Shown piece by piece: positions 23,979-44,866 of a stretch of DNA of 62,413 bases. How positions within the stretch are numbered: position 1 is the stretch's first letter; every line of letters starts with the position of its first letter. The translations under genes and the position numbers were made by a program. Origin of the DNA: an uncultured Oscillibacter sp. (GTDB lineage Bacteria > Bacillota > Clostridia > Oscillospirales > Oscillospiraceae); assembly GCA_947382875.1 (NCBI GenBank), contig CANDBG010000008.1, forward strand, positions 1-62,413. The letters are read 5' to 3'. The notes beneath the pieces are model-generated. The model made no database searches. It was given only the letters and a program-made list of their open reading frames with translations, and was not told the DNA's origin.

Positions 23979-24045
23979 AGTATAATTTTTTCTATATAAA
24001 AGACAATCCGCGAAAAAGTAATAAACGCATAACCACTGCGTTATG
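23979..24045 (-). promoter_or_regulatory. LysR-type operator module and promoter of the OYE-E1 operon
   Basis: On the minus strand: palindrome CATAAC-N6-GTTATG (24045-24028), 4 bp, half site TATTAC (24023-24018), -35 TTGTCT (24006-24001) starting exactly 17 bases after the half site, 16-bp spacer, -10 TATACT (23984-23979). It is back to back with the plus-strand module at 24077, about 32 bp away. Confidence 0.75.
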
Positions 24046-24076
24046 TCTTTGAACCGCGAAAAAAAGCTGTCAGCGC

Positions 24077-24144
24077 GATAACTCCAAGATTATCCTGTGA
24101 TAAACGAAAGGCCGATTGTGTTTCCATTTTGAGATTCTTATAAT
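24077..24144 (+). promoter_or_regulatory. LysR-type operator module and promoter of the MBL/VOC operon
   Basis: GATAAC-N6-ATTATC (24077-24094), 4 bp, half site GATAAA (24099-24104), -35 TTGTGT (24116-24121), 17-bp spacer, -10 TATAAT (24139-24144). The layout is identical to the other six modules. Confidence 0.75.
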
Positions 24145-24194
24145 GAAATTACAGTAAAATCAGCCGGTTCACCCGGCAGAAAGAAGGGAAATCT

Positions 24195-25037
24195 ATGGCA
24201 GAATATCAAATCCAGGTGTTGGAACTGGGATATGACCCGAGCTTCCCGGCGGGAATCGCGTTCGATTTCTGGCACATGGGCGATCAATCCATCAAATCCT
24301 CCTTTTCCATGACGCTGCTGCGCAGCAAAGACCACTGCATTCTGTATGACTGCGGAATGGACATGAATTCCCGTTTTTCCACGGAAAAAATCCAAATGGA
24401 AGGCGATCAGAACTGCCATGCGCCGGATGCCGTCCTGCGGAGCGCCGGCCTTGCGCCGGAGGATGTAGACAGCATTGTGTTGAGCCACTGCCACTGGGAC
24501 CACATGAGCGGTCTGCGTTACTTCCCAAATGCTCATTTTTACATTCAGCGGGCGGAGACGGAACAGTGGGAACGCTCCATGGAAAATCCGGATTTCCCGC
24601 TCACTCACAAGAGCGTGGTGAACCCGGAGAGCCTGACGCTTCTGCGGGAGTATGTGTCTGCGGGAAAGGTCACGTATTTGGACGGAGACACGGCAGAGCT
24701 GTTTCCCGGCATCCACGTCCGGACGGCTTCCGGACACAGCTATGCGCAGAATATGCTGTTTGTGGACAACGCCGGGCGGCATTTCGCAGTAATTGGTGAT
24801 GTAAGTATGCGCCCGGAAAGTTTTCAGGGAACGGAAGCGTTTCCCTGCTTTCTGCCGAATCTGAAATTTGCCGTAGGCCCCCTAGCGGACATTCTGACCT
24901 CTTACCGGCAAATCCTGGACTGGGTTGACGGCGATGTGACGCGCATTCTGATGACGCATAACAGCACGGTTCAGGAGGTCTGGCCCACAACAGAAAGCGC
25001 GTTAGGCTTGCAGATCACTACGGTTCATAAAACGTAA
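24195..25037 (+). CDS. MBL-fold metallohydrolase (lactonase-like)
   Basis: 280 residues with the metallo-beta-lactamase signature SHCHWDHMSG (H-x-H-x-D-H, dinuclear metal site) near residue 98. ASGHSYAQNMLFV supplies a later metal His, VIGDVSMRP an Asp ligand, and MTHNSTV a final His. The overall layout resembles quorum-quenching and other lactonases (AhlD/AttM type). It probably hydrolyses a lactone or ester intermediate. GAAGAAAGAAGGGAA precedes the ATG. It is the first gene of a two-gene operon with a VOC protein, 16 bp downstream, under a shared-module promoter. Confidence 0.8.
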   Translation: MAEYQIQVLELGYDPSFPAGIAFDFWHMGDQSIKSSFSMTLLRSKDHCILYDCGMDMNSRFSTEKIQMEGDQNCHAPDAVLRSAGLAPEDVDSIVLSHCHWDHMSGLRYFPNAHFYIQRAETEQWERSMENPDFPLTHKSVVNPESLTLLREYVSAGKVTYLDGDTAELFPGIHVRTASGHSYAQNMLFVDNAGRHFAVIGDVSMRPESFQGTEAFPCFLPNLKFAVGPLADILTSYRQILDWVDGDVTRILMTHNSTVQEVWPTTESALGLQITTVHKT

Positions 25038-25053
25038 AAAGGAGGGCTTTTTC

Positions 25054-26052
25054 ATGGAACAGAACCATATTCACCCCAAGCAGGCGCGGCAGGTTGACCA
25101 GATTGTGCTGGTAAGCGGCAATCTTTTTGAAACGCTGCATCATTTCCGCAGCGTATTCCATTATGAACACTGGGACCTCCATACAAGAACCAACCGAAAT
25201 ATGCCGAAGCAGGAGTTCGACGGCGGCGACGGCACGTTTTCGTATTACGAGGCGGTAACTCCCGCGGCAAACGGGATTACCCTGCGGGTAGTGGAGCCGG
25301 TCTCCGGGAGTACCGTCTATCAAATATTTTTAGACCGGTTCGGCCCGGGAATTATGGGTCTGCGGGAACGGATTCCCGACAGCCGCTGGGAATCCACGCT
25401 TGCACATTTTGCGAAAAAAAACGTCCCGATTGCACAGCAATCGGAAACGGAAGTCTGGATGGACCTGTCAAGCTCCATCGGAGGAATGCACGGACTGGTA
25501 AAAGCCTCCGCGTCGGCCAGCGAGGAGGTCCATGCAGAGAAACTGCGCGAAATTTTCCAGATTTGCATCGTGACGGACGACGTTCGGCGCACCGCCGCGC
25601 ATATGCTGGACTTACTGGGGCTGGGCCCCTGGGAAATCGGACACGCGAACAATCAGACAGTAACCAATATGGCGTCCAGCCAGTATCCCGCCGGCACATT
25701 CCCGCCCGCCGAGTTTCTTCCTGCAATTTGCCGTTTCGGCAACATTGAATTTGAGCTGGTCCAGCCGGTGCATGGCCCTGTGCCCTATTTCGATTACCTG
25801 AAACGCCGTCCGACGGGCTATCATCATATCAAGGAAACCCTGCAAATCACCGAATGGAACGCCGCCCTGGAGCATTATGCAAGCATGGGCGTTTCCGTAC
25901 TGCTCTCCGGGAAAATCGGCCCCTGCGGGTGGAGCAACCTGGATACGGAAGCCCTGATCGGCTGCGTCTATGAGCTGAGCGACGGCGTGCCGATGGACAA
26001 GCTGCCGGACGGCTATAACCCCTGTTTCTACCCGCCGGTGGAAACGGTTTAA
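25054..26052 (+). CDS. Two-domain VOC (glyoxalase/dioxygenase superfamily) protein
   Basis: 332 residues with two vicinal-oxygen-chelate modules. The first begins QVDQIVLVSGNLFETLHHF. The second begins IFQICIVTDDVRRTAAHMLDLLGLGPWEIG and ends with PTGYHHIKETLQ and TEALIGCVYEL. Metal-ligand candidates include the His of HHIKE and the Glu of FELVQP. The second module closely resembles those in the protein at 27892-28866 (GLGPWEIG compared with EMGPWSIG; FELVQPVHGP compared with IEVIQPVKGP). VOC enzymes catalyse epimerisation, isomerisation or C-C cleavage through an enediolate; the reaction here is unknown. Confidence 0.75.
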   Translation: MEQNHIHPKQARQVDQIVLVSGNLFETLHHFRSVFHYEHWDLHTRTNRNMPKQEFDGGDGTFSYYEAVTPAANGITLRVVEPVSGSTVYQIFLDRFGPGIMGLRERIPDSRWESTLAHFAKKNVPIAQQSETEVWMDLSSSIGGMHGLVKASASASEEVHAEKLREIFQICIVTDDVRRTAAHMLDLLGLGPWEIGHANNQTVTNMASSQYPAGTFPPAEFLPAICRFGNIEFELVQPVHGPVPYFDYLKRRPTGYHHIKETLQITEWNAALEHYASMGVSVLLSGKIGPCGWSNLDTEALIGCVYELSDGVPMDKLPDGYNPCFYPPVETV

Positions 26053-26134: not shown

Positions 26135-27019
26135 TTATTCTACCGTCGATTCCAGTTCCAGCCGGGACATGATTTCGTCCACCAGCAGCTGAATGGAGGG
26201 ATTTTGATTTTCCTTATGCCAGGCCAGCTTGACCGAAAAACCGACATTCGTCGGAATTCTGGCCAGCTCAAACCGCTCCGGGATTTCGACCAAATCGTCC
26301 AGGATGGCGTAGCCAAAGCCCATCTTGGCCGACATACACACCGATTCCACATTGGGGAGAATTTCCGTGCTTCCCGGCGTGAAGCCGTGGCACTCGCAGA
26401 TATAAACGGCGTAATCCTTTGTAATCGCCGTGGCGCTGACCGCGGGAATCAACAGACGCTCATACTTCAAATCCTCAAAGTTGATCTGGGGCGCAAAATC
26501 TCTGGAAATAATAGCGGTATGCCGCCGCTTGGCAAGGGTTCGCTCTTCCAGATACGGCTGGTCATGCAGATTGTATTCGTAATTGATTACGATGTCAAAA
26601 TCCTCTTTTGTCCGCTGAAACGACAAGGCCGAAAGCGGCACGTGGGATATTTTCATGAGAATTTCGGGGTGACACTGCTGAAAATCCGCCAGGATGTAAT
26701 CCAGATTTCCGAAGTTGCTGCTCTCCGGAAGCCCCATCCGCAGTTTATAAAAAATCTGCTTGCTCCGCAGCCGGGCCTGATACAGGGCGTCTTCAAAATC
26801 CTTTCCTGATTTTTCCAGCATTTCCAGCATGATCTGTCCGGCAGTGGTCAGCGTGACCGAACGGTAACTGCGGTTGAAAAGCGTAACGCCCCATTCCTTC
26901 TCCAGCAGGGAAATCTGCTTGCTGACCGCGGGCTGTGAAATATAATGCTTTTCAGCCGTCCGGCGAAAGCTGCCCAGCTTGGCCAGCGTAAGAAAATATT
27001 CAAGCTGCAAAAAATTCAT
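26135..27019 (-). CDS. LysR-family transcriptional regulator, likely controller of the catabolic island
   Basis: 294 residues. The N-terminal winged helix is canonical (FLQLEYFLTLAKLGSFRRTAEKHYISQPAVSKQISLLEKEWG, then RSVTLTTAGQ), followed by a two-lobed effector domain of about 200 residues. The start has GGAGGTAGTT upstream. It is the only LysR gene in the island and sits in the middle of seven promoters that share a 6-6-6 palindrome and half-site module, which is the kind of site LysR proteins bind (T-N11-A cores). A half site overlaps its own promoter. That it controls all seven is inference. Confidence 0.88.
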   Translation of the reverse strand: MNFLQLEYFLTLAKLGSFRRTAEKHYISQPAVSKQISLLEKEWGVTLFNRSYRSVTLTTAGQIMLEMLEKSGKDFEDALYQARLRSKQIFYKLRMGLPESSNFGNLDYILADFQQCHPEILMKISHVPLSALSFQRTKEDFDIVINYEYNLHDQPYLEERTLAKRRHTAIISRDFAPQINFEDLKYERLLIPAVSATAITKDYAVYICECHGFTPGSTEILPNVESVCMSAKMGFGYAILDDLVEIPERFELARIPTNVGFSVKLAWHKENQNPSIQLLVDEIMSRLELESTVE

Positions 27020-27207: not shown

Positions 27208-27275
27208 GATAACTTTACAGCTATCGAACCATAACAATTTGACGGATTGAATTGGAAGCCGGTGTCAATTATATT
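27208..27275 (+). promoter_or_regulatory. LysR-type operator module and promoter of the VOC-MFS-ADH-SDR-MFS operon
   Basis: GATAAC-N6-GCTATC (27208-27225), 4 bp, half site CATAAC (27230-27235), conserved TTGACGGA, -35 TTGAAT (27247-27252), 17 bp, -10 TATATT (27270-27275). Confidence 0.75.
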
Positions 27276-27404: not shown

Positions 27405-27872
27405 ATGAGTGAATTGTTGCAGAAAATCAATCAGATCGGCATCGTGACCAAAGACGCCAAGGCGATGGCAAAACGCTACGCCGAGATTTACGGCATCACG
27501 GACTGGGTGATTCAAGACGGTGAAAACGGAGGCTTCGACCCGGCGGCCCGCGCGCAGAATCTGACCACCCGCGGCGTCCGGCGCGACTTTGAAATCACCC
27601 TGGCTTCCGGACATATCGGAGACATGGAAATCGAGCTGATTCAGCCCTTGGACGAATACAGCGACTATGCCCGGTTCCTCAAGGAACACGGCGAGGGCGT
27701 ACATCACATTTCCCTCTGCACAAATGTCCCGCAGTTCAAGCAGGTAATGGAGGAACGGGGAATTCCGGTTCTTTTGAGCGGAACCATTCCCGGTGTGGAA
27801 ACCTTTCTCTATTACGACACAACGCCCGAATTGGGGATGACGTTTGAAATCCACGACACGGAAAACAAATAG
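27405..27872 (+). CDS. Single-domain VOC family protein
   Basis: 155 residues, one vicinal-oxygen-chelate unit of methylmalonyl-CoA-epimerase-like size. It starts LLQKINQIGIVTKDAKAMAKRYAEIYGI, continues with MEIELIQPLDEYSDYARFLKEHGEGVHHISL (candidate metal His in HHIS and Glu in IELIQP) and ends LGMTFEIHDTEN. GGAGGCGGAAAGG precedes the ATG. First gene of the six-gene plus-strand operon. Likely an isomerase, epimerase or lyase of a pathway intermediate; specificity unknown. Confidence 0.75.
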   Translation: MSELLQKINQIGIVTKDAKAMAKRYAEIYGITDWVIQDGENGGFDPAARAQNLTTRGVRRDFEITLASGHIGDMEIELIQPLDEYSDYARFLKEHGEGVHHISLCTNVPQFKQVMEERGIPVLLSGTIPGVETFLYYDTTPELGMTFEIHDTENK

Positions 27873-27891
27873 AAAGGAAGGGATGATCTGG

Positions 27892-28866
27892 ATGAATCCT
27901 GTCATGAGCGCGGCCCGGCTTCAAGCCAATTCCGAAAACCGTTTCTTTGACCGAATTACGGTTGTAACAAACCGTTTGGAGGAGACGGCGGGAAATCTGG
28001 AAAAGCTGTACGGCCTGAAAAACTGGAAGCTGCGCGAAGAGAGCCGCGGCGGGTTCAGCGAACGCACCGCCGTCGCATATTTGGGCAATGTGGAGCTTTG
28101 CCTGACACAGCCTTTGAAGGGCGAATCCGTTTGCAGCCGTTACCTCACTGCGTATGGCGAGGGCTTGTTCTGCCTGCGGGAGAACGTGCCGCCGGAGAAA
28201 TGGGAGGCGGAACTCACCCGTTATAAAAGGCTCGGCGTTTCCGTGGCGCAGGAGGATATAGACGCGGAAGGCGTCACGGTCTGGCTGGATACCCAGGCGC
28301 AGCTTGGCGGTATGCTGGCGCTGCACCGGGACAGCGAAGAAGCCGCTGAAACCCGCCGGGTCCTGCGGAACGACCGGGTACTGACCCAAATCAATGTCGT
28401 CACCGGCGATGTGGACCGCACCATTCATCAGCTGACGGAACTGCTGGAAATGGGGCCGTGGTCCATCGGCACGCTGAACAACCAAAGCGTCGCCAACCCC
28501 GGCCTGCTGGTAAACGGAAAACTGGAAGCGCCGGAGTTCCATTTCCAGCTTGGCATCACCGTTTTTGCCAACATCGAAATCGAAGTCATTCAGCCGGTGA
28601 AAGGCCCTACGGTATACCAGGAGTATCTGGACCGCCACGGGGTTGGGTTCCATCATATCAAGGAAATTGTGCCAGTAGACAGCTGGCAGTCCACCCTGGA
28701 CGGCTACGCGGCCAAGGGAATTGCCTTGAGCATCAAAGGCGGCGTCGGCGACACCAGCTTCGCCTATTTGGATTGTGAAAAGCTCTTTGGTTTTGTGGTG
28801 GAGCTGGGCATTCCTGTGCCGCCGGGACGGATGCCGGACGGTTACAATGAATATCACTATCCCTGA
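27892..28866 (+). CDS. Two-domain VOC family protein
   Basis: 324 residues, two VOC modules: FFDRITVVTNRLEETAGNL... and RVLTQINVVTGDVDRTIHQLTELLEMGPWSIG...GVGFHHIKEIVPVD...LFGFVVELGIP. It is a paralogue of the protein at 25054-26052, sharing the GPW-I-G and HHIKE blocks. Of two in-frame ATGs (27883, 27892) the second was chosen because AAGGAAGGG lies at proper spacing from it. It follows the single-domain VOC gene by 19 bases, so it is cotranscribed. Function unknown. Confidence 0.75.
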   Translation: MNPVMSAARLQANSENRFFDRITVVTNRLEETAGNLEKLYGLKNWKLREESRGGFSERTAVAYLGNVELCLTQPLKGESVCSRYLTAYGEGLFCLRENVPPEKWEAELTRYKRLGVSVAQEDIDAEGVTVWLDTQAQLGGMLALHRDSEEAAETRRVLRNDRVLTQINVVTGDVDRTIHQLTELLEMGPWSIGTLNNQSVANPGLLVNGKLEAPEFHFQLGITVFANIEIEVIQPVKGPTVYQEYLDRHGVGFHHIKEIVPVDSWQSTLDGYAAKGIALSIKGGVGDTSFAYLDCEKLFGFVVELGIPVPPGRMPDGYNEYHYP

Positions 28867-28923
28867 CCCGCTTCGGGTTTGCGCGGCACTTTGCACGCAT
28901 GAAATTCAGGAAGGAGAAACATC

Positions 28924-30219
28924 ATGTCACAACAGCACGAACACGAAAAAGTAGTTGGTAAGGACTCCAAGGCAAATTTCGGTACAAGAGGCTGGCTTCT
29001 GGTTTTGTTCGGATTGATGTCCTTGTTTTATGTCGGTTCCATTCAAAATGAATCCATGAACGTCGTCATCCCGAAGCTGATGGAGCTTCACGGCTGGGGC
29101 GACGGTCAGATTTCCCGCATTACCGGTTATGCAACCTTTATCGGCGCAATGTGTGTGTTTTTCTGGAATCCGGTGGTCCGGAAGTTCGGCGCAAAATGGC
29201 CCGCCGTGATTGCGCTGGCGGTGGTGGGCATTGGTATGAGCCTGCAAGGTTACGTGACCAGTGTTGGCGCTTATGCGGTCATTCGTATTCTGACTGTGAT
29301 TGGCACAATGTCCGTCATGAACTACTTTTTAGGCGTTCTGGTTATCAACTGGTTCCCCACCAAAAAGGGCGTTGCGATGGGTTATATTACCGTCGGCAAC
29401 AATCTTGCGTCCATCGTGTGCATCTGGATGCTGACGGGACTTTGGTCCTCCTTTGGCTTTGGCGGCGGCTCCATTGCCTATGGTCTGCTGGGTCTGCTTC
29501 CGATTGCCGTTTTGGTCTTTGCCCTGGACGACTACCCGGAGAAATTCGGGCTGTTCCCGGACAACGACACGTCCATGACCCGGGAAGAAGCCGACAAAAT
29601 GCTGGAAGAAGGCCGCCGGTACGAGGAGACCAGCCCCTGGACGGTAAAACGGCTGCTGGTAACGCCCCAGGTCTGGAAAATTGCCGTTGCGCTGGGCCTG
29701 CTTTGTCTCACCATCTCCGGCATCCTGACGCATCTGGTTGCGATCTTCACTTCCAGAGGCTATGACCAGACCTCCGCCATGCTGGCAATGACCATTTGCA
29801 GTGTCCTCGCGATTCCTTTGAGCATTTTCCTAGGCGTGATTGACACGAAGTACGGCGCAAGAATTGCTACCATCGGGTTGGCGGTTGTCATGGCGGTTTG
29901 CTTCTTTGTTTCGGTGATTGACTCAAAATGGTCTGTCTTTTTCGCCGGGTTTGCCGCGGCCGCGGTCATGGGCTGTCTCAACAACGTGGCAACCTCGCTC
30001 CCCGCCAGTATCTTTGGACGTTATGACATGAAGCGGGCGCAGTCGGTTATCATTCCGATCATGCAGACGTTACAGGCAATTGGCGTCGGCTTGACCGGAA
30101 CGCTGGCGGAAAAAACCGGCGGCTTTACCGCAGTCATGGGGCTGATGGGCGTCTGCTCGATTGTCGGCGCGCTGATTCTGCTGACGCTGAAGGACGAGTG
30201 CATCGGACGCATTGAATAA
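28924..30219 (+). CDS. MFS transporter (oxalate/formate-antiporter-like)
   Basis: 431 residues, about twelve transmembrane helices. The N-terminus FGTRGWLLVLFGLMSLFYVG mirrors FGAKGWFLIIYSLAALF of the carrier at 20597-21892. The helix 4-5 loop is INWFPTKKGVAMGYI, and the large cytoplasmic loop holds PDNDTSMTREEADKMLEEG. AAGGAGAAAC precedes the ATG. It lies within the VOC/dehydrogenase operon, so it probably moves a substrate of the same pathway. Confidence 0.88.
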   Translation: MSQQHEHEKVVGKDSKANFGTRGWLLVLFGLMSLFYVGSIQNESMNVVIPKLMELHGWGDGQISRITGYATFIGAMCVFFWNPVVRKFGAKWPAVIALAVVGIGMSLQGYVTSVGAYAVIRILTVIGTMSVMNYFLGVLVINWFPTKKGVAMGYITVGNNLASIVCIWMLTGLWSSFGFGGGSIAYGLLGLLPIAVLVFALDDYPEKFGLFPDNDTSMTREEADKMLEEGRRYEETSPWTVKRLLVTPQVWKIAVALGLLCLTISGILTHLVAIFTSRGYDQTSAMLAMTICSVLAIPLSIFLGVIDTKYGARIATIGLAVVMAVCFFVSVIDSKWSVFFAGFAAAAVMGCLNNVATSLPASIFGRYDMKRAQSVIIPIMQTLQAIGVGLTGTLAEKTGGFTAVMGLMGVCSIVGALILLTLKDECIGRIE

Positions 30220-30237
30220 GAAGGGAGACGGTTGACT

Positions 30238-31311
30238 ATGGCAGACACCATGCGGGCCTTTGTGGCGGTGGAACGGGGCCGCTTTGAAGTGCAGGACGTC
30301 CCGATTCCGGAAGTCGGGGACGACGACATCCTGATTCAGCTGAAATCGGCGGCCATCTGCGGCAGCGACGTACATATTTACGACGGCGGCATGGACCCGC
30401 TGTGCGGCTATCCGGTGATTATGGGACACGAAAACGCCGGGGTCATTGTAAAACGCGGAAAGAACGTATCCCCAAAATGGCAGGTTGGAGACCGGGTGAC
30501 CTCCGAAAACACCGTGGAGGTATGCGGAAGCTGTTACGGCTGTATCACCGGCGAATATGTCACCTGCGAGCATCGCCGGGGGATGGGCATTGCCGCGGAC
30601 GGCATTCTTGCGGAATATGTCCGGATTCCGGGGGATATCCTCCGGCTGGTGCCGGACTGCATTTTCAAAATTCCCGACAACGTTTCCTTTGAGGAAGCGC
30701 CGCTTCTGGAGCCTGCCGCCAATGGATACAAGGCCGTGTTTCAGGAAGGCCGCATGATGGCGGGCGAATATGTAATTGTCTCCGGCGCGGGCGCACTGGG
30801 GCTTTACAGCGCGCATATGGCGGCCATCGGCGGCGCGGCGCGTGTCATTTTGCTGGTGCGGACCAGCACGGCAAAGGACAAACTGGAAACCGCCCGTAAG
30901 CTTGGCGTGACCGACATCATTTATTCCGACGAGCCGGAAAAAAGCCTGGAAGCCGTGCATCAGCTGACCGGCGGCTATGGAGCGGATCTGGCCATTGAGA
31001 CTACGGGCGTTCCGGCGGTATTGGACCTGGGACTGCATATGCTGCACGTCAGAGGCCGGATGGTCCGGATTGCCATTAACAACACGCCGTATCAATATGG
31101 CCTGGACAGCCTCACGCTGCGTTCGATTGAACTGATCGGGCATATGGGATACAACACGGTTTCCTGGCTCAATACCATCCATCTGGCGCAGCAGGGAAAA
31201 TTGGATTTGAAGTCCATCGTGACGCACCGCGTCAAACTGGAGGACGTGAAGCGTGGATTTGACTTGATGGTTTCCCGCGAAGCCGGCAAGGTGCTTGTGG
31301 AATTTGACTGA
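30238..31311 (+). CDS. Zinc-dependent medium-chain alcohol/polyol dehydrogenase
   Basis: 357 residues. Catalytic zinc site residues are in AAICGSDVHIYDGG (Cys) and IMGHENAGVIV (His-Glu). A structural-zinc-like cysteine set is partly kept in CGSCYGCITGEYVTCE. The Rossmann motif is VSGAGALGLYSAHMAAIGG. The family is that of threonine/sorbitol-type dehydrogenases, using NAD(P) to oxidise a secondary alcohol. The ATG at 30238 is favoured over a TTG six bases earlier because AAGGGAG is better spaced. It follows the MFS gene by 18 bases. Confidence 0.87.
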   Translation: MADTMRAFVAVERGRFEVQDVPIPEVGDDDILIQLKSAAICGSDVHIYDGGMDPLCGYPVIMGHENAGVIVKRGKNVSPKWQVGDRVTSENTVEVCGSCYGCITGEYVTCEHRRGMGIAADGILAEYVRIPGDILRLVPDCIFKIPDNVSFEEAPLLEPAANGYKAVFQEGRMMAGEYVIVSGAGALGLYSAHMAAIGGAARVILLVRTSTAKDKLETARKLGVTDIIYSDEPEKSLEAVHQLTGGYGADLAIETTGVPAVLDLGLHMLHVRGRMVRIAINNTPYQYGLDSLTLRSIELIGHMGYNTVSWLNTIHLAQQGKLDLKSIVTHRVKLEDVKRGFDLMVSREAGKVLVEFD

Positions 31312-31427
31312 CGATACGGGAAGTACCGTTTGATTTGTGTGACGCAGTGCTGTCTGTCCGTTCAAGCGGGCAGGCAGCGCCGCTGTTTGTACCGCTGGAT
31401 TCTTCGGCGGGAGAAAGGGGTTTTTTT

Positions 31428-32267: not shown

Positions 32268-32314
32268 CGCGGTCCTGAAAAACACACGGCGCTGTTTCCA
32301 GGAGGTTTTCAAGC

Positions 32315-36687: not shown

Positions 36688-37044
36688 ATGAGCTATCAGG
36701 TTGTTCAGAAAAACGAAGCGGTAAAGTATGAGGCCCCCGGTCATTTCGACTGCCTGACAACCCGTCTTCACAATCCAGACGGTGTGAATGACGGTACAAT
36801 TGTAATGGGCCTGTCGCATTTTCTGCCCGGCGGCGGAGCCAATATGGCGGCGGCCAATTTTGAGATGGTCTATTACATCGTGGAAGGGGAAATGACCGTC
36901 ACCCTGAAAGACGACGCCGGAACGGAGACGGCGTATGTTCTGCACGCGGGCGACAGCGTACATTTCGGCAAGGGAACCCAGCGTGCCAGCTTGAATACCG
37001 GTATTGTAACGGCGCAGATGCTCACGGTGATGATTAAAAAGTAA
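36688..37044 (+). CDS. Small cupin-domain protein
   Basis: 118 residues forming one cupin barrel: motif 1 around FLPGGGANMAAANFEMVYYIVEGEMTV and motif 2 LHAGDSVHFGKGTQRASLN. Most of the usual metal-binding histidines of motif 1 are replaced (NMA instead of H-x-H), so a binding or isomerase role is as likely as metal catalysis. GAGGAGGACACGACTGCT precedes the ATG. First gene of the nine-gene operon that ends at 44734. Its partner step is unknown. Confidence 0.75.
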   Translation: MSYQVVQKNEAVKYEAPGHFDCLTTRLHNPDGVNDGTIVMGLSHFLPGGGANMAAANFEMVYYIVEGEMTVTLKDDAGTETAYVLHAGDSVHFGKGTQRASLNTGIVTAQMLTVMIKK

Positions 37045-37085
37045 TGGAAGAAATTTCAGGAAAAGAAAGGGGATAACCGGCAGAT

Positions 37086-37886
37086 ATGTCTGATTTATTC
37101 AATTTGCAGGGACGCAATGCCGTCATTTTCGGAGGCGCGGGCGGCTTGGGAAAGCTGATTGCCAAGGCTTACGCCGAAGCGGGCGCCAATGTGGCCATTG
37201 CCTCCCGGAGTGAGGAAAAACTCCGCGCCGCGTGCGAGGAGCTGCACGCGCAGACTGGAAAAGCATTTCGGTATTACGTCTGCGACGCCACCGACGAGGC
37301 CGCCGTAGAGGCCGCCGCGAAAAAGGCAAACGAGGAAATGGGCGGCGTAACGATTCTGGTGAACTCCCAGGGCGTCAACAAAAAGGTGCCGGCGTTGGAG
37401 TTCCCCGTCGACGAATTCAATCGCGTCATGAATGCAAACGTTACCTCCGTGCTGATTACGTCGAAGCACTTCGGCGCGTACATGAAGGAACAGGGCTACG
37501 GCAAAATCGTGAACGTCACGTCGGTCCGGGGCAAAATCGCAACCCGCGGCCCGGGCAACGCGGCGTATTGCGCCAGCAAGGGCGCGGAAGATATGCTGAC
37601 GAAGGTTCTGGCCGCCGAGCTGGGACCCTATGGCATTACAGTCAACGGCTTTGGTCCCAACATCATGAAAACGCCTATGATGAACAAGGTTTTTGAAATG
37701 CGGGCCAAAGAGGCGGGCGTTACTGTGGAGGAATATTTGCAGCAGCAGGGCGCAAGTCTGCCGCTGCGCCGGATGTCCGGCCCGGAGGACTGTGTGGGCA
37801 CCGCGCTGTTCCTGGCGGCTCCCGCTTCGGACTTCCTGACCGGCAACATCCTTTATCCCGACGGCGGCCTGACGGCGGTCGGCTGA
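37086..37886 (+). CDS. Short-chain dehydrogenase/reductase (FabG-like; candidate ring reductase)
   Basis: 266 residues: cofactor loop GGAGGLGKLIAKAYAEAG, LVNSQGVNKKVPA (replacing the usual NNAG with NSQG), catalytic Ser in VNVTSVRGKIA and YCASKGAEDML (Tyr-x3-Lys), with PDGGLTAVG at the C-terminus. In the pathway proposed here for this operon it would reduce the ring (phloroglucinol-reductase-like role), but the sequence alone cannot fix this. It lies 41 bases after the cupin gene and 13 before the thiolase. Confidence 0.85.
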   Translation: MSDLFNLQGRNAVIFGGAGGLGKLIAKAYAEAGANVAIASRSEEKLRAACEELHAQTGKAFRYYVCDATDEAAVEAAAKKANEEMGGVTILVNSQGVNKKVPALEFPVDEFNRVMNANVTSVLITSKHFGAYMKEQGYGKIVNVTSVRGKIATRGPGNAAYCASKGAEDMLTKVLAAELGPYGITVNGFGPNIMKTPMMNKVFEMRAKEAGVTVEEYLQQQGASLPLRRMSGPEDCVGTALFLAAPASDFLTGNILYPDGGLTAVG

Positions 37887-37899
37887 GGAGGCGTGAACC

Positions 37900-39150
37900 G
37901 TGAGAGAGGTAGTCATTGCGGACGCCTGCCGGACGGCGGTAGGAAGCATGGGCGGAAGCCTGCGGCCCCTGTCCGCCTGCGACATGGCGGAGGCCGTGCT
38001 GCGGGGAATTGTGGAGCGCACCGGGATTCGGGCCGGTGAACTGGATGAAGTGATTCTGGGCCATTGCCGTCAGACCTCCGACGAACCCAATGTTGCACGG
38101 GTAGCGGCGCTGCGGGCCGGAATCCCGGAAAGCGTTCCCGCTTATACGGTTATGCGGCAGTGCGCCTCCGGCATGACGGCGGTGCAGAACGGCGCGATGA
38201 GCATTCAGTGCGGTCAGGCGGATATGATTTTAGCGGGCGGAACGGAATCCATGTCCAACGCCGTGTTTTATGTCCGAAACGCCCGCTGGGGCGTAGGCAC
38301 CGGCACCACCGAGTTTGTTGACGCGTTAACGGAGGTGCAGTACCGCAGCCAGCCGGAAGAAACCTATGGACATTACAACATGGGCGCAACGGCGGAAAAC
38401 GTCGCGGAAGTCAAGAGAATCAGCCGTGAGGAACAGGACGCGTTTGCGCTGGACTCCCAGAGAAAAGCCGCCGCCGCGATTCAAGCGGGACGCTTCCGGG
38501 ACGAAATCGTTCCCCTGATTGTTCCGCAGGGCCGGAAAAAACCGCCGCTGGTGTTTGATACGGACGAATTTCCCCGTCCCAATTCCACCATGGAGAGTCT
38601 GGGCAGACTGCGGCCATGTTTTCCGATTCGCCATGACAGCAGTGGGCGTCTGTTCAGCGCCCGGGAGGGCGGCGGCACCGTGACAGCCGCCAGTTCCTCC
38701 GGACGAAACGACGGCGCGTCCGCGATGCTGCTGGTTTCCCGGGAGAAGGCGGATGCCCTGGGGCTGAAGCCCCTGGCACGGATCACCGGCATGGGTTCCG
38801 CGGGCTGTGATCCCCGCACAATGGGACTTGGCCCGGTATATGCCGTTCCCAAAGCCCTGAAAAACGCGGGCCTGACCATGGACGACATTGGACTGGTGGA
38901 GCTGAACGAAGCCTTTGCTTCGCAATCCATCGCCTGCATTCGGGAGCTGGGCCTGGAGAACCGGAAGGAAATCGTCAATGTGAACGGCGGCGCGATTGCC
39001 CTGGGACATCCCGTCGGCTCCTCCGGGTGCCGGATTCTGGTCACGCTGGTACATGAAATGAAGCGGCGCGGCGTGCGGTACGGCCTGGCAACGCTGTGCA
39101 TTGCGGGCGGAATGGGGCAGGCAACCGTCGTGGAACTCTGCAACGGATAA
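37900..39150 (+). CDS. Thiolase (acetyl-CoA C-acyltransferase)
   Basis: 416 residues. The nucleophilic Cys is in YTVMRQCASGMTAVQ (about residue 86). The C-terminal catalytic His is in NVNGGAIALGHPVGSSG and the acid/base Cys in LATLCIAGGMGQA. It cleaves 3-oxoacyl-CoA with CoA; in this operon the likely substrate is acetoacetyl-CoA or a close analogue, giving acetyl-CoA. The start is GTG with GAGGAGGCG eight bases upstream. Adjacent to the BKACE gene, consistent with C-C cleavage reactions in series. Confidence 0.92.
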   Translation: MREVVIADACRTAVGSMGGSLRPLSACDMAEAVLRGIVERTGIRAGELDEVILGHCRQTSDEPNVARVAALRAGIPESVPAYTVMRQCASGMTAVQNGAMSIQCGQADMILAGGTESMSNAVFYVRNARWGVGTGTTEFVDALTEVQYRSQPEETYGHYNMGATAENVAEVKRISREEQDAFALDSQRKAAAAIQAGRFRDEIVPLIVPQGRKKPPLVFDTDEFPRPNSTMESLGRLRPCFPIRHDSSGRLFSAREGGGTVTAASSSGRNDGASAMLLVSREKADALGLKPLARITGMGSAGCDPRTMGLGPVYAVPKALKNAGLTMDDIGLVELNEAFASQSIACIRELGLENRKEIVNVNGGAIALGHPVGSSGCRILVTLVHEMKRRGVRYGLATLCIAGGMGQATVVELCNG

Positions 39151-39172
39151 AACGGAAAGGAATTTACGGATT

Positions 39173-40066
39173 ATGGCAAAGACCAACAAAGTGATTATTT
39201 CCGCGTGCCTGTGCGGCGCGGGAACCAAAAAGGATCAGGCGCCTACCGTCCCTTACACCCCGGAGGAAATCTCCGACCAGGCGGTTGCCTGTGCAAAGGC
39301 GGGCGCGGCAATTGCACATATTCATGTGCGCGAAGACAAAATGGTCGACGGCGTGATGCAGATTGGCTACAAGTCCATGAGCCTGGAAAAGTTCACCGAA
39401 GCGGTAGACCTGACCCGGAAGAAGTGCCGGGAACAGGGCGTGGACATTGTTTTGAATCTGACCACCTCCGGCGGCGAATATGAAGATCAAAAGCGTTTGC
39501 AGCACCTGGGAAAACTGCTGCCGGAAATGTGTTCCTTTGACCCGAATACGCTGAACTGGGCCAACAGCTATATTTTTGAAAACAGTCCGCGCTTTCTGAA
39601 CCTGCTGGCTCAGGAGGTTGTCAAGCACAACATCAAGCCGGAGTTCGAGGTGTTTGACACCGGCCACATTGATTCAGTGATGTACTACGTCAAAAAGTGG
39701 AACATCCCCCAGCCGCCTCACATCCAATTCATTATGGGCGTCGGCGGCTCCATGCCGGGTACGGCGGAGAATCTGGCGTTTCTGGTGAACAAGCTGCCCG
39801 AGGGCGCAACCTGGTCCGTCTCCGGCATCGGCAAGGCGCATATGCCGATGATGCTGGCCGGTCTGGCCCTGGGCTGCGACGGCCTGCGGGTGGGCCTGGA
39901 GGACAACATTCTTTACGGCAAAAACCCGGACGGCTCCAAGGTGATTGCGACAAACGTCATGCTGGTGGAGCGCGCCGTGGAGCTGACGAAGCTGGCCGGA
40001 CGCGAAATTGCAACCGCCGCAGATGCACGGACCATTCTGGGCCTGGAAAACCGGGCGTCGTTATAA
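39173..40066 (+). CDS. BKACE family (DUF849) beta-keto acid cleavage enzyme
   Basis: 297 residues, TIM barrel. The zinc-binding HIHVR motif (IAHIHVRED at about residue 45) and the later GLEDN block with the metal Glu are present, and ISACLCGAGTKKDQAPTVPYTPEEI is the usual N-terminus. BKACE enzymes condense a beta-keto acid with acetyl-CoA and split it into acetoacetate plus a new acyl-CoA. A family member is known as triacetate acetoacetate-lyase in anaerobic phloroglucinol catabolism. The neighbouring cyclase, dehydrogenase and CoA-transferase genes make that role plausible. Confidence 0.9.
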   Translation: MAKTNKVIISACLCGAGTKKDQAPTVPYTPEEISDQAVACAKAGAAIAHIHVREDKMVDGVMQIGYKSMSLEKFTEAVDLTRKKCREQGVDIVLNLTTSGGEYEDQKRLQHLGKLLPEMCSFDPNTLNWANSYIFENSPRFLNLLAQEVVKHNIKPEFEVFDTGHIDSVMYYVKKWNIPQPPHIQFIMGVGGSMPGTAENLAFLVNKLPEGATWSVSGIGKAHMPMMLAGLALGCDGLRVGLEDNILYGKNPDGSKVIATNVMLVERAVELTKLAGREIATAADARTILGLENRASL

Positions 40067-40085
40067 AAAACAGGAGGTTATTATT

Positions 40086-40988
40086 ATGGCTTACATGCCT
40101 TTGGATCAAAACAAGTTTTATCTGGATGATTCCAAGATGACGAAAATCTATGACCTTTCCATGCCTTGGGGCGTGGACACGCCGCTGTGGCCGTTTCCCG
40201 GTCCCCGGCAGGATCTGGTATTTCCCCGCGGCCAATACCTGGGACGCTTCCACAAGCGTACCATGACCTATACCGGCACGCTCCACGCCGGTACGCATAT
40301 GGATGCGCCGAACCACGTGCTTCACGAGGAAGAAGTAGACCGGGAAGCCAACGGCTATACCCTGGCGGAGATTCACCTGGAACGCTGCATCGGCACCGGC
40401 GTGATTGTGGATATGCGCTATCTGCGGGACGAATTCGAGGCCAGGTGGAATGCCGCCGGAGGCGACCCCGCCAGGATGGGCAATATCTGGCACGAGATTA
40501 CGCCGGAAGAGCTGGAAGCCGCCTGCAAGAAAGACGGTCTGGAAATCCGGAAAAACGATTGGGTCATCATCAACACGGGCTTCCACCACTATTGGCGCAA
40601 GAACAATGACAAGTATTATAACTATTACGCCGGAGAAGGCCCCGCCCTGGCGGAATATCTGACGCACGTCAAGCACATCAAGGGTATTTCCGGTACCTGG
40701 GGCGCGACGGACGCTCCTCTGTGGCACCATCCTCTGAAAGAGCAAATGCCCTGGCTGGACACCGCCTACCGCGCCGCTACCGGAAAGGACCCGGCGGTCG
40801 AGTATCCCGACTACGAACCCTGCCACCGCATTTATATGCAGCACGGCGTCTGCACCATCGAAAATGCCGGCGGCGACATCGACGAAGTGACAGGCCGCCG
40901 TATGATTATTGCGGCGTTCCCCTTCCGCTGCGAGATGGCGGACGGCGGCTTCGTCCGGCTGGTCGCATGGGAGGAAGGCAGCTTCTGA
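40086..40988 (+). CDS. Cyclase-family metal-dependent hydrolase (candidate ring cyclohydrolase)
   Basis: 300 residues of the cyclase/kynurenine-formamidase family. The signature LHAGTHMDAPNH (H-x-G-T-H-x-D-x-P-x-H) is intact at about residue 76. It begins IYDLSMPWGVDTPLWPFPG and has a late GISGTWGATDAPLW block. Members hydrolyse amide, lactone or cyclic 1,3-dione C-C bonds with Mn or Zn. Here it probably opens a reduced ring to a hydroxy-oxo acid. CAGGAGGTTATTATT precedes the ATG. Its stop overlaps the next start as TGATG. Confidence 0.87.
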   Translation: MAYMPLDQNKFYLDDSKMTKIYDLSMPWGVDTPLWPFPGPRQDLVFPRGQYLGRFHKRTMTYTGTLHAGTHMDAPNHVLHEEEVDREANGYTLAEIHLERCIGTGVIVDMRYLRDEFEARWNAAGGDPARMGNIWHEITPEELEAACKKDGLEIRKNDWVIINTGFHHYWRKNNDKYYNYYAGEGPALAEYLTHVKHIKGISGTWGATDAPLWHHPLKEQMPWLDTAYRAATGKDPAVEYPDYEPCHRIYMQHGVCTIENAGGDIDEVTGRRMIIAAFPFRCEMADGGFVRLVAWEEGSF

Positions 40989-41953
40989 TGAAAACATTGG
41001 CGGACATTCATAAAATTGCCGTTCTGGGCGCCGGGACCATGGGGCCCGGCATTGCCCAGGCATATGCTTCCGGCGGGTATTCGGTGACGATGTGGACCCG
41101 TTCGGCGGCCACGATGGAAAAGGCAAAAGCGGCCCTGGCAAAGCAGCTGGAAACCTTCGTACAGGAAGAAGAGCTTTCCGCAGAAGAGGCGGAGATCATT
41201 CTGCATCGGATTTCCTTCGCCGCAACGGTCGAGGAAGCCGTTGCCGGTGCGGATTTCATTCAGGAGACCATCGTAGAGAACCGGGACGCCAAGGCGGCGC
41301 TGTACGAACAGCTGGCGGCCTGCGCGCCGCCGGAGGCGATTCTTGCCTCCAACACTTCGGCGATGAATATCTTTGAAGTGGTTCCGGAAAAGCTGCTGCC
41401 GCAGCAGATTATTTGCCATTGGTACGCGCCGCCGCAGCTGATTCCGCTGGTGGAAGTGGTCAAAAGTGAGCAAGCGCCTCAGGCGTATGCGGAGATTGCA
41501 TTGGAGCTTCTGAAAAAGTGCGGCAAGACGGCTGTTCTGATGAAGAAGTTCATTCGCGGCTATATCGTAAACCGTTTGCAGCAGTGCCTGAACCGGGAGG
41601 TGTTTTATCTCCTGGATAACGGCTTCTGCGACGCGGAAGCGATTGATCTGGCGGCAAAGGCATCGTTTATTCCCCGCGCCTGTGTTCTGGGGCTTTGCAA
41701 GCGGGCGGACTTCGGCGGCCTGGACATGACGGCGAACAATTACAAGAACCGCTCCTACACCATGCCGGAGCATGGCGACGAGCTGCCCGAAACGCTTCAG
41801 GCGCTCGTCGAAGCGGGACACCTGGGCATCAAGAGCGGCAAGGGCTTTTATGATTACGAGGGGACGAACGTGGAATCCTTGAAGGCCAAGCGCGACAAGC
41901 AGCTCTTTGAGGTGTTCCGTCTGGAGAAGAAATTTTTGGAGGACCCGGTTTGA
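40988..41953 (+). CDS. 3-hydroxyacyl-CoA dehydrogenase-type NAD-dependent 3-hydroxy acid dehydrogenase
   Basis: 321 residues. The NAD fold is IAVLGAGTMGPGIAQAYASGG. Catalytic His is in ICHWYAPPQLIPLVEVV, close to the HFFNP motif of 3-hydroxybutyryl-CoA dehydrogenases but altered (CHWYAPP). The helical C-terminal domain ends HLGIKSGKGFYDYEG. The changed motif suggests a free hydroxy acid or an unusual acyl substrate rather than plain hydroxybutyryl-CoA, which would suit a 3-hydroxy-5-oxohexanoate-type dehydrogenase. Start overlaps the cyclase stop. Confidence 0.85.
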   Translation: MKTLADIHKIAVLGAGTMGPGIAQAYASGGYSVTMWTRSAATMEKAKAALAKQLETFVQEEELSAEEAEIILHRISFAATVEEAVAGADFIQETIVENRDAKAALYEQLAACAPPEAILASNTSAMNIFEVVPEKLLPQQIICHWYAPPQLIPLVEVVKSEQAPQAYAEIALELLKKCGKTAVLMKKFIRGYIVNRLQQCLNREVFYLLDNGFCDAEAIDLAAKASFIPRACVLGLCKRADFGGLDMTANNYKNRSYTMPEHGDELPETLQALVEAGHLGIKSGKGFYDYEGTNVESLKAKRDKQLFEVFRLEKKFLEDPV

Positions 41954-42019
41954 CGCCGGTTCTCCGCCCTCCGATTCCGGAACCGGCTGGATGGTTTCAT
42001 AAGAAAGAAGGCAGGACAA

Positions 42020-42685
42020 ATGGTAAAATCAAAAGTTGTTTCCATAGACGAGGCCATGACGCACCTTCGCAGCGGCATGACGGTCATGATTCCGGGCTTT
42101 GTCAACTGCGGCGTTCCTGAAACGCTGATTAAAGGCGTCATCGCGGCAGGCTATACGGATTTGAATATCATCTCAAACAATACCAGCGTACAAGGCCGCG
42201 GCATTGGCTTGCTGGTACATGAAAACCGGATTCATCACATCACCTGTTCTCACATCGGTTCCAACAAGGAAACGGTTGCCAAGGTGGTTGCCGGTGAGAT
42301 CGACGTCACCTTCGTGCCCCAGGGAACGCTCTGCGAACGGATGCGGGCCGGCGGCGCGGGGATCGGCGGAATTTTGACACCCACCGGCCTGGGCACGCCG
42401 ATGGAAGAGGGAAAACAGATTGTAGAAGTTGACGGCGTGAAGTACATTTTGGAAAAGCCGCTCCATGCGGACGTGGCGCTGATTCACGCATGGAAGATTG
42501 ACAGGATGGGCAACTGCATCTTCCGCCGCACCGCACGGAATTTCAACCCGATTATGGCCGCCGCCGCTGACCTGGTGATTGCGGAAGCGGAGGAAATTGT
42601 AGAGACCGGCGAACTGGACCCGGATTCCATCATGACGCCCGGCTGTCTGGTGGATTACATCGTCCAGGGCTGCCCGGGAACATAA
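42020..42685 (+). CDS. 3-oxoacid CoA-transferase subunit A
   Basis: 221 residues of the class I CoA-transferase alpha chain. The glycine-rich loop MTVMIPGFVNCGVPETLI near the N-terminus, FVPQGTLCERMRAGGAGIGGILTPTGLGT and KADV-like PLHADVALIHAWKID blocks are all present. It forms a heteromer with the subunit encoded 13 bases downstream and transfers CoA to acetoacetate or a related 3-oxo acid. GAAGGCAGGACAA precedes the ATG. Confidence 0.9.
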   Translation: MVKSKVVSIDEAMTHLRSGMTVMIPGFVNCGVPETLIKGVIAAGYTDLNIISNNTSVQGRGIGLLVHENRIHHITCSHIGSNKETVAKVVAGEIDVTFVPQGTLCERMRAGGAGIGGILTPTGLGTPMEEGKQIVEVDGVKYILEKPLHADVALIHAWKIDRMGNCIFRRTARNFNPIMAAAADLVIAEAEEIVETGELDPDSIMTPGCLVDYIVQGCPGT

Positions 42686-42698
42686 GGAGGCATCCGAT

Positions 42699-43349
42699 AT
42701 GAACGAGAAGGAATTTATTGCAAGAAGGGCCGCCCGGTTTTTCTCCGACGGCGATCTGGTGAATTTGGGAATCGGTATGCCGACGATGGTCGCCAATTAC
42801 ATCCCGGAGGGAATTGACGTCTGGATTGATTCGGAAAACGGCGTCATTGGCCTGAACGGATACAGCGCGGCGGGAACAGAGGACTGGAATCTGGTGGACG
42901 CCTCCGGGACGCCCGCAATGCTGCGGGAGGGCGGCTGCTGCTTTGATTCGTTTACCTCTTTCGGTTTGATTCGCGGCGGACACGTGGCGTTCACCATCTT
43001 GGGCGCTTACGAGGTCGATCAAGAGGGAAACTTAGCAAACTGGACGGTTCCCGGCAAAACCGTAGCGGGCATGGGCGGCGCAATGGATTTGGTATCCGGG
43101 GCCAGACAGGTGCTGATTACCATGACGCATACGGACAAAGAGGGGCGTCCCAAGATTTTGAAAAAATGCACCCTGCCCCTTACCGCCGCGCATGAAGTGG
43201 ATTACATCATTACCGAATTGTGTGTGCTGCACTACAACGGGGAAGGGCTGGTTTTGGAAGAACTTGCGCCGGGCGTTACGGTAGAGGAAGTTCTTTCCAA
43301 AACGGAGGCGGATTTGATTATCCCCGCGTCCATCGGGTGCATGGTCTGA
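42699..43349 (+). CDS. 3-oxoacid CoA-transferase subunit B
   Basis: 216 residues. The catalytic Glu sits in WIDSENGVIGLNG (S-E-N-G motif, about residue 46). NLGIGMPTMVANYIP and TFILGAYEVD-type strands (FTILGAYEVDQEGNLANW), and TLPLTAAHEVDYIITELCVL, are typical for the beta chain. Works with subunit A to form and use a glutamyl-CoA thioester. Its stop overlaps the symporter start (TGATG), so expression is coupled. Confidence 0.92.
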   Translation: MNEKEFIARRAARFFSDGDLVNLGIGMPTMVANYIPEGIDVWIDSENGVIGLNGYSAAGTEDWNLVDASGTPAMLREGGCCFDSFTSFGLIRGGHVAFTILGAYEVDQEGNLANWTVPGKTVAGMGGAMDLVSGARQVLITMTHTDKEGRPKILKKCTLPLTAAHEVDYIITELCVLHYNGEGLVLEELAPGVTVEEVLSKTEADLIIPASIGCMV

Positions 43350-44734
43350 TGGACCCGCTGTTGCTTGCCGGACTTGCCGGGACGCTGTTTTTGATTGTTG
43401 GCCTGTCCATCTGGTCCGGCACGAAAAAGCAGGGCGGGGAAAAGAAAAACGGACTGCCGGTTGTGGCTGGCGTCATTATGGGAACGCTGGTAGGCGGTTC
43501 CTCCACCGTCGGCACGGCGCAGCTGGCGTATACCTATGGGATGTCGGCCTGCTGGTTTACGCTGGGCGGGGGAATCGCCTGCCTGATTCTGGCCCTGATT
43601 TACGCCGATCCGCTGCGCCGCGCCGCCTGTCCCACGCTCATGGGCATTATCCGGCAGGAATTCGGCGGAACGGCGGGTGTCCTTGCGTCGGTGCTTTCGG
43701 CGGTCGGGACCTTTATCAATATTATTTCCCAGCTGATTTCCGCCACTGCCGTAATTGCGGTTGTCCTGCCTGCTTTCGGGACGGTTCCCGCCCTGGCGGT
43801 GTCCGCTTTGTTTATGGTACTCTACGTCGTTTTTGGCGGCACAAAGGGCGCTGGCATGGCAGGCGTTGTCAAGACGGCGCTGCTGTACATCGCTATGATG
43901 GGCTGCGGTTTTCTGGTTCTGCAAATGACCGGCGGCTTTTCCGCATTTGTCGAGATGGTACATGAGATTGACAATCCGGAAGGGATTCGGTTTTTCTCTC
44001 CGTTTGCCCGCGGGATTGGAACAGACGCCGGGGCAGGACTTTCCTTGATTTTGGGCGTCCTCACGACGCAGACCTACGCGCAGGGAATTTTGTCGGCCAG
44101 GACGGACCGGGCCGGCAAGGGCGGAGCCATTGTATCTGCGTTTCTGATTCCGCCGATTGGCTTTGGAGGAATTCTGGTGGGACTGTATATGCGGGCGCAC
44201 GCGTCACTCTATCCCGGACTGACTGCAAAAACGGCGCTGACCACCTTTGTTACCACACATATCCCGCCGTTGGCCGCCGGGGTGGTTCTGGGTACGCTGT
44301 TCATTGCCGTAGTAGGCACGGGCGCGGGGTTGGCTCTGGGCATTTCCACCATCATCAATAACGATCTTGTGAACCGCATGACACAGCGGTTTGACAGTCC
44401 TCAAAAAATGTCGATGCTCTCCAAGCTCTGGATTGTTCTGGTATTGGCGGGGGCCTGCGCCCTGTCCGCCGGGGGGCTGGGGGACACCATCCTGCGCTTT
44501 GCGTTTATGTCCATGGGCCTGCGGGGGGCGGTGGTATTTATGCCGCTGGCCTGTGCGCTGTGGCTGCCTGGAAGGGTTGACCGAAGATTGGTCGTGGCAT
44601 CCATTGTAGTCAGTCCGCTTTTGGTGCTGGCATTCGGCATCCTGGACATCCTGCCGTTTGACTCCCTGTTCGCCGGTATTTTTGCCAGCGCGCTTTTATG
44701 CGCCGCCGGTTTACTGGTCAGGAAACAACCATAA
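43349..44734 (+). CDS. Sodium:solute symporter (SSS family)
   Basis: 461 residues, about thirteen hydrophobic segments with the LeuT-like SSS pattern: IMGTLVGGSSTVGTAQLAYTYGMSACWFTLGGGI near the N-terminus, and later GAGAGLALGISTIINNDLVNRM. It takes up an organic solute with sodium. As last gene of the ring-cleavage operon it probably imports the growth substrate or a carboxylic-acid intermediate. The next 240 bases contain a terminator and then another operator module. Confidence 0.87.
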   Translation: MDPLLLAGLAGTLFLIVGLSIWSGTKKQGGEKKNGLPVVAGVIMGTLVGGSSTVGTAQLAYTYGMSACWFTLGGGIACLILALIYADPLRRAACPTLMGIIRQEFGGTAGVLASVLSAVGTFINIISQLISATAVIAVVLPAFGTVPALAVSALFMVLYVVFGGTKGAGMAGVVKTALLYIAMMGCGFLVLQMTGGFSAFVEMVHEIDNPEGIRFFSPFARGIGTDAGAGLSLILGVLTTQTYAQGILSARTDRAGKGGAIVSAFLIPPIGFGGILVGLYMRAHASLYPGLTAKTALTTFVTTHIPPLAAGVVLGTLFIAVVGTGAGLALGISTIINNDLVNRMTQRFDSPQKMSMLSKLWIVLVLAGACALSAGGLGDTILRFAFMSMGLRGAVVFMPLACALWLPGRVDRRLVVASIVVSPLLVLAFGILDILPFDSLFAGIFASALLCAAGLLVRKQP

Positions 44735-44750
44735 GACGTTTTTCAAAAGC

Positions 44751-44785
44751 AACGTACAGGCTGTGCAAAAACGGTCTGTACGTTT
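44751..44785 (+). terminator. Intrinsic terminator after the symporter gene
   Basis: AACGTACAG (44751-44759) pairs with CTGTACGTT (44775-44783), followed by TTG; the T run is short. Confidence 0.6.
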
Positions 44786-44799
44786 TGCCATTCTGGCAG

Positions 44800-44866
44800 A
44801 ATAGCTCGACAGTTATGAGGCAATAACTTTTTTTCGGATTGAACAACCCGGCAAAAATTGTATAAT
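44800..44866 (+). promoter_or_regulatory. LysR-type operator module and promoter of the SDR pair
   Basis: AATAGC-N6-GTTATG (44800-44817), 4 bp, half site AATAAC (44822-44827), -35 TTGAAC (44839-44844), 16 bp, -10 TATAAT (44861-44866). Confidence 0.7.

Follow-up and report, generated by a model that had tools for sequence, protein, structure and literature searches.

Seven promoters of one layout probably place a catabolic island of an uncultured Oscillibacter under a single LysR-type regulator

Does one regulator control the catabolic island carried by an uncultured Oscillibacter sp.? The stretch of DNA analyzed here, which we call the window, comprises positions 1 to 62,413 of contig CANDBG010000008.1 (assembly GCA_947382875.1), and within it seven promoters share one regulatory module in an island that contains one lysR gene. 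Our current hypothesis, drawn from sequence comparisons and held at a probability of roughly 85%, is that the seven modules are the operator-promoters of a single LysR regulon of about 27 genes, that the island LysR protein is the regulator, and that a compound of the pathway activates it. This hypothesis is supported by an exact palindrome that is linked to one LysR clade, by the same promoter register in other genomes, and by the confinement of the module to the island. Since the same palindrome is found near related LysR genes that lie beside flavonoid-degrading genes, one switch probably controls the ∼27 genes for the breakdown of plant-type aromatic compounds.

The seven modules (Table 1) align without gaps over 42 bp, at the coordinates given by an earlier sequence-only reading of this DNA, which had described the same rigid layout at all seven promoters. 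The consensus consists of nATAAC-N6-GTTATn, four free bases, a third half-site resembling nATAAC, seven free bases, and a CGGATTG-like stretch, and individual modules deviate from its 22 specified bases at 1 to 4 positions. The columns A2 T3 A4, T15 A16 T17, A24 T25, A27, G38, and T40 T41 G42 are identical in all seven. The TTG of CGGATTG forms the first half of the -35 element; it starts at module position 40, exactly 17 bases after the start of the third half-site as had been claimed, and a single scoring rule places the best -10 element at position 62 or 63 in every module. Half-sites start at module positions 2, 13, and 24, an 11-bp period that puts them on the same helical face. The palindrome is centered at position 9.5, ∼65 bp upstream of the predicted transcription start, and the second site lies toward the -35 element, which is the layout of a LysR operator with an anchor site near -65 relative to that predicted start.

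Whether such likeness could arise by chance was examined with leave-one-out matrix scans of the window, in which each module was scored by a matrix built without it. Held-out modules scored 11.7 to 39.1 bits and each ranked within the top seven places of the window, while the best non-module place per run reached 8.4 to 12.9 bits. The two weakest modules exceeded the best other place of their own run (11.7 versus 8.8 bits for the module at 33498, and 16.4 versus 8.4 bits for that at 24077). In the assembly of this genome (2.77 Mb, 113 contigs, 87.5% complete), a 26-bp core of the module occurs with no or one mismatch at six places, all within the island, and with two mismatches at six further places. 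Of these six, two are island sites (33498 and, on the opposite strand, 44800) and four lie outside the island; once three mismatches are allowed, the counts equal the level of the reversed control. A 41-bp pattern with up to three mismatches gave six places, all in the island, and none for the reversed control; module 4 is outside these six because it has four mismatches. The genome-wide motif search that the sequence-only reading had proposed as its check thus confines the module to the island. Equally good modules occurring at random before unrelated housekeeping genes would, according to that reading, count against it; the best matrix scores in 3-kb stretches round the four non-island core places are -2.8 to 8.2 bits. 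Among 80 other genomes of the genus, 79 have no match to the 41-bp pattern at up to three mismatches; the sole match, in G859 (L041, contig C32 1923-1963; G, C, and L numbers are our handles for genomes, contigs, and loci), has three mismatches, scores 15.6 bits, and lacks the TTG.

A gapless likeness over 42 bp inside one island could also point to ancestry instead of selection, with one promoter segment copied as the island was assembled. However, mean identity between modules is 31% in the free module columns and 26% in the upstream and downstream flanks, both near chance. This indicates that the modules are not recent copies and that their likeness has been maintained, and we reject copying as an explanation of negligible probability.

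The candidate regulator carries a LysR substrate-binding domain (PF03466, 58.5 bits, cut-off 28) and an N-terminal winged helix-turn-helix; in phmmer alignments this region (residues 1-67, or a longer stretch) matches several solved LysR proteins, with a best E of 4.9e-15. It scores 48.1 bits against the PcaQ model TIGR02424, under the cut-off of 303.8. Five LysR_substrate genes are present in the genome and only this one lies in the island, in agreement with the sequence-only reading. A search of 59 relatives at E ≤ 1e-40 did not find the protein, and a phylum sample of 398 genomes searched at E ≤ 1e-35 contained one other such LysR, in G510, with 36% identity. Scans with the LysR peptide gave two weak Pseudomonas loci among genome contigs and no match among viral contigs. 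By eye, lysR seems to have a promoter of its own at ∼27130-27170 on the minus strand (TTGCGT, TATAAT); between the two elements lies one GTTATC half-site, which might serve autorepression of lysR.

The G510 locus holds an exact ATAACCAACAGGTTAT ∼3 kb from the lysR homologue, before a reading frame that looks ferredoxin-like by eye; the same site also precedes a fumarate-reductase-type flavoprotein and a 206-residue protein. This palindrome suggested a wider comparative test. A profile built from the window and G510 LysR proteins returned 70 matches besides the window's own, with 58 assigned loci, of which 57 were used for the upstream test and the tree (L079, which had no tblastn match, was left out of both). 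Internal stop codons are present in matches L077, L109, and L110; their proteins entered the tree truncated at the first of these stops, and length was not used to exclude any row. Within 400 bp upstream of lysR, an exact ATAAC-Nk-GTTAT occurs at 4 of the 57 loci for k = 6 and at none for the fourteen other spacings from 0 to 14. The simulated mean for k = 6 was 0.045, and none of 3000 simulations reached four.

The tree places the window LysR in a seven-member clade with support of 95/97. Wide stretches of 3.8-20 kb round lysR, unequal in length where contigs end, were obtained for 48 of the 58 loci (6 clade and 42 other); the ten loci without one are L089, L093, L095, L096, L097, L098, L116, L122, L124, and L126, half of which are near-copies of included loci in the tree. 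The exact ATAAC-N6-GTTAT is found in 4 of the 6 other clade loci (five sites) versus 2 of the 42 non-clade loci (Fisher P = 0.001). At other spacings, the clade loci have one match at k = 3 and none elsewhere, and the 42 non-clade loci have 0 to 4 matches, with a simulated mean of 0.65. The promoter register is shared as well: in all five clade sites the best sigma-70-like promoter has its -35 element at 39-40 and its -10 element at 62-64, as in the window, and shuffles gave a mean of 0.49 of the five sites and reached all five in 1 of 4000.

These results bear on the alternative that the modules are bound by another regulator, either one of the four other LysR-type proteins or a member of another family, and that the island lysR is a bystander or a local regulator. 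The four further LysR_substrate genes are available for such a role, and the start of the island lysR is ∼190 bp from the nearest palindrome, that of module 3, versus 68-150 bp in the homologue loci. In addition, a second LysR gene of this genome (L036, contig C1 73810 and 75836) has ATAATTTTTATGTTAT, one mismatch from the palindrome, just before its ATG. On the module matrix, however, that stretch reaches no more than about -0.9 bits, and a near copy lies ∼2 kb away in similar surroundings, as in a repeat. Moreover, the exact palindrome and the register in other genomes go with members of the island LysR's clade rather than with LysR genes in general. Control of the modules by a different regulator is accordingly improbable in our estimate. 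As a separate observation, the outer bases of the palindrome (module positions 1 and 18) form complementary pairs in 6 of the 7 modules though their base identity varies; a hairpin or covariation reading of these positions was rejected, because by eye they pair in only 2 of 7 exact sites of other genomes, and the pairing is given no weight.

Several observations weigh against a single regulon under the island LysR. The usual LysR motif is T-N11-A. The modules do not have this symmetric motif: T3 and A16 are 12 bases apart in all seven, giving T-N12-A. The upstream test is weak when one mismatch is allowed, with 7 of 57 loci at k = 6 and up to 6 at other spacings, and the window LysR sits on a long branch (1.61) that is flagged as unsure. 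Two clade loci, those of G411 and G178, have no exact palindrome in 20 kb. The clade sites were read toward a structural gene other than lysR, and this direction was chosen after the results for both strands were known. One of these sites, L129:5832 in G282, adjoins another LysR gene (4564-5457), whose own site it may be. None of the five clade sites shows the third half-site or CGGATTG, which makes these features of the window's version and not a trait of the clade. Lastly, the 15.6 bits of the G859 match are close to what the two weakest modules score when held out, and on score alone this match cannot be dismissed.

Based on the module architecture, a LysR tetramer would anchor one dimer on ATAAC-N6-GTTAT, ∼65 bp before the predicted start, and the second dimer, a helical turn further downstream, would contact the third ATAAC half-site together with the CGG adjoining the -35 element. 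Because half-sites recur every 11 bp, the protein would occupy a single side of the DNA and hold its front dimer beside RNA polymerase at a -35 element that is weak (TTGnnn) in these modules. A pathway compound bound by the effector domain would then shift the front dimer to a polymerase-recruiting position, and all seven transcripts, some 27 genes, would start together. We infer binding, activation, the tetramer geometry, the transcript limits, an inducer, and a single signal from sequence features. The second site could also be taken to favor a repressor that is relieved by its inducer, in that a dimer bound against the -35 element could hinder polymerase; LysR proteins can do both, and NodD represses in some cases without inducer. 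The palindrome centered near -65 and the weak TTGnnn elements are nevertheless the usual activator layout, comparable to the -64/-43 arrangement at lysA, and weak -35 elements fit activation. Repression is in our view an unlikely mode for the island LysR, which we continue to treat as an activator.

With transcript limits assigned from strand and spacing, the seven putative transcripts hold 27 genes and span 14904-46667; the earlier count of about 21 genes for the same transcripts was too low. A hairpin with a T run lies between transcript 2 and lysR (26113-26078, minus strand). Three VOC/Glyoxalase_4 proteins are encoded at 25054-26052, 27405-27872, and 27844-28866, two of them double-length; plasmid matches were sought for two VOC proteins and were found in 7 and 4 records, covering about half of each protein.

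Table 1. Positions in the window of the candidate regulator, the seven modules, and the putative transcripts that they precede
Feature	Position	Strand	Role or content	Remark
LysR-type regulator	26135..27019	-	Proposed binder of all seven modules	
Module 1	23979..24045	-	Promoter of transcript 1 (5 genes, 23900 down to 14904)	1 mismatch to 41-bp pattern
Module 2	24077..24144	+	Promoter of transcript 2 (24195-26052)	3 mismatches to 41-bp pattern
Module 3	27208..27275	+	Promoter of transcript 3 (27405-33502)	1 mismatch to 41-bp pattern
Module 4	33498..33564	+	Promoter of transcript 4 (33620-35587)	4 mismatches to 41-bp pattern; weakest module
Module 5	35579..35644	+	Promoter of transcript 5 (35667-36407)	2 mismatches to 41-bp pattern
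Module 6	36569..36636	+	Promoter of transcript 6 (36688-44734)	1 mismatch to 41-bp pattern; start ATG 36688
Module 7	44800..44866	+	Promoter of transcript 7 (44973-46667)	1 mismatch to 41-bp pattern; ATG 44973
Transcript 1	14904..23900	-	Ene-reductase (OYE/dienoyl-CoA reductase type), MFS transporter, E2, E3, fused E1 of 2-oxoacid-type dehydrogenase	5 genes
Transcript 2	24195..26052	+	MBL-fold hydrolase, VOC protein	2 genes
Transcript 3	27405..33502	+	Two VOC proteins, MFS, Zn-alcohol dehydrogenase, SDR, MFS	6 genes
Transcript 4	33620..35587	+	Aldo-keto reductase, Zn-alcohol dehydrogenase	2 genes
Transcript 5	35667..36407	+	Transaldolase/fructose-6-phosphate aldolase family	1 gene
Transcript 6	36688..44734	+	Cupin, SDR, thiolase, BKACE, PF04199 cyclase, 3-hydroxyacyl-CoA-type dehydrogenase, CoA-transferase A and B, sodium/solute symporter	9 genes
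Transcript 7	44973..46667	+	Two SDRs	2 genes

The gene content of the clade loci gives an indication of the signal. A relative of chalcone isomerase is encoded in the G220, G282, G178, and G411 loci, and a 310-residue flavoprotein in those of G220, G282, and G178 as well as in G745, which is outside the clade. The G220 proteins match chalcone isomerase structures (E 3e-96) and PDB 7d38 (E 1e-134), respectively; the latter is among the codes given for the flavone reductase FLR (PMC7862272). A further family of ∼206 residues adjoins the clade lysR in G510, G220, and G282 (L067:17486-18106, L128:7747-8367, and L129:12302-12979; 49-78% identical). Its G510 member weakly resembles DAPG hydrolase, below the Pfam cut-off, and a PDB search of one member gave no match; the family is possibly a flavonoid-pathway hydrolase. 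The gene that faces the G817 site is 85% identical to a gene in the G178 locus. An exact palindrome stands before a G745 operon whose products include an FLR-type protein, a Zn-alcohol dehydrogenase, and an ene-reductase with 37% identity over 660 residues to that of the window gene at 21942; this palindrome, however, is only ∼40 bp before the start codon, and the promoter register is absent. From these neighborhoods we may fairly infer a flavonoid-related cue for the LysR clade.

For the window itself, the families in transcript 6 can be set beside a known cluster. The phloroglucinol cluster of Clostridium scatologenes comprises an SDR reductase, the 'cyclase' DPGC, the 3-hydroxyacyl-CoA-type TfD, the BKACE-type TAL, a thiolase, and a CoA-transferase (PMC10470551). 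Transcript 6 holds SDR, PF04199 cyclase, 3-hydroxyacyl-CoA-type dehydrogenase, BKACE, thiolase, and CoA-transferase families together, a likeness by family; unlike that cluster as described, the window operon also encodes a cupin and a symporter and is part of a larger island. The cue for the window regulon would on this evidence be an aromatic of flavonoid or phloroglucinol type, or else a ring product derived from it, a proposal that we hold at about even odds. Alternatively, the cue may be another ring compound, such as a cyclitol or another cyclic diketone, and the flavonoid genes of the clade would then be no guide to the window. In favor of this, the family searches made with the window genes yielded no match to chalcone isomerase or flavone reductase, both Zn-alcohol dehydrogenases have the scyllo-inosose dehydrogenase model IolM among their top matches (below cut-off), and the BKACE scores 152 bits against the 3,5-dioxohexanoate model NF053538, under its cut-off of 430. 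The family content of transcript 6 and the resemblance of the window ene-reductase to that of the G745 operon, which encodes a flavone reductase relative, speak against it, and we consider another ring compound a tenable idea whose odds are somewhat below even. As to a phloroglucinol reductase among the SDRs, PDB searches of two window SDRs returned general SDR names. Homology of the island as a whole was considered too and rejected: of 391 genomes searched in the class, the 390 others gave no match to the window cyclase at E ≤ 1e-30, and on plasmids it matched 31 records, the best with 35% identity.

Taken together, these data allow a bolder proposal, to which we give slightly less than even odds: that the window LysR belongs to an uncharacterized clade of polyphenol-sensing regulators of this phylum, whose code is ATAAC-N6-GTTAT with a -35 element at 39-40 and a -10 element at 62-64, and that this code has been set before seven promoters in the fashion of nod boxes, putting a complete island of ∼27 genes for aromatic (flavonoid- or phloroglucinol-type) breakdown under one cue.

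A LysR regulon with repeated operators is an already known kind of system. NodD is one LysR regulator that acts with a flavonoid cue through 47-bp nod boxes before many operons of rhizobial symbiosis islands, in some cases repressing without inducer (PMC7643969). The likeness lies in several rigid operator modules of similar length (47 bp there and 42 bp here) in one island; it is an analogy only, since the genes here are catabolic whereas those of NodD make Nod factors, and the flavonoid cue here is a proposed one. The nod box also differs from the window module in operator sequence. PcaQ of Burkholderiales regulates protocatechuate genes through ATAAC-N5-GTTAT upstream of pcaH (PMC3572157). 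It shares with the window the half-sites and, as a LysR regulator of aromatic catabolism, the general role, but its spacing is N5 instead of N6, and the window protein is far under the PcaQ model cut-off. Among enterobacterial LysR-type layouts, for which the consensus is CTATA-n9-TATAG, lysA has sites near -64 and -43 (PMC5002191); there, too, two sites ∼21-22 bp apart are centered near -64/-43, but the operator sequence is not the ATAAC-N6-GTTAT of the window. FdeR is a naringenin-dependent LysR-type activator (PMC10799723). The likeness to it is by description, as a LysR activator with a flavonoid cue that is known in the case of FdeR. The FdeR pathway is aerobic.

Among the titles and abstract starts that searches of the open-licence PMC literature listed, neither the operator code, its register, and its link to this LysR clade nor transcriptional control of anaerobic plant-polyphenol breakdown was found. 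Work on the anaerobic breakdown of plant polyphenols is proceeding one enzyme at a time. Should the code prove correct, the palindrome and register could be used to list such regulons in other genomes, missing pathway genes would be nominated, with all 27 genes becoming candidates for one route, and aromatic-responsive promoters could be built. It is also a good example of an operator-promoter register that has been retained while the LysR proteins themselves are just 29-36% alike.

The borders of the island were examined as well. Alignments of four relatives to the window break off at 47626-47679, and the 19-40 kb examined in each do not contain the island side, so a boundary near this position is likely; the other end was not found. 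A tRNA-Ala gene (47445-47520) lies at the right end of the island, and no exact 14-base copy of it occurs elsewhere in the window. Beyond it is a kinase/PsuG-type pair that is kept in other genomes of the genus, with the PsuG-type gene in 23 of the 41 searched at E ≤ 1e-80. To the left of the island, a serine recombinase gene with Resolvase and Recombinase domains is present at 6243-7379.

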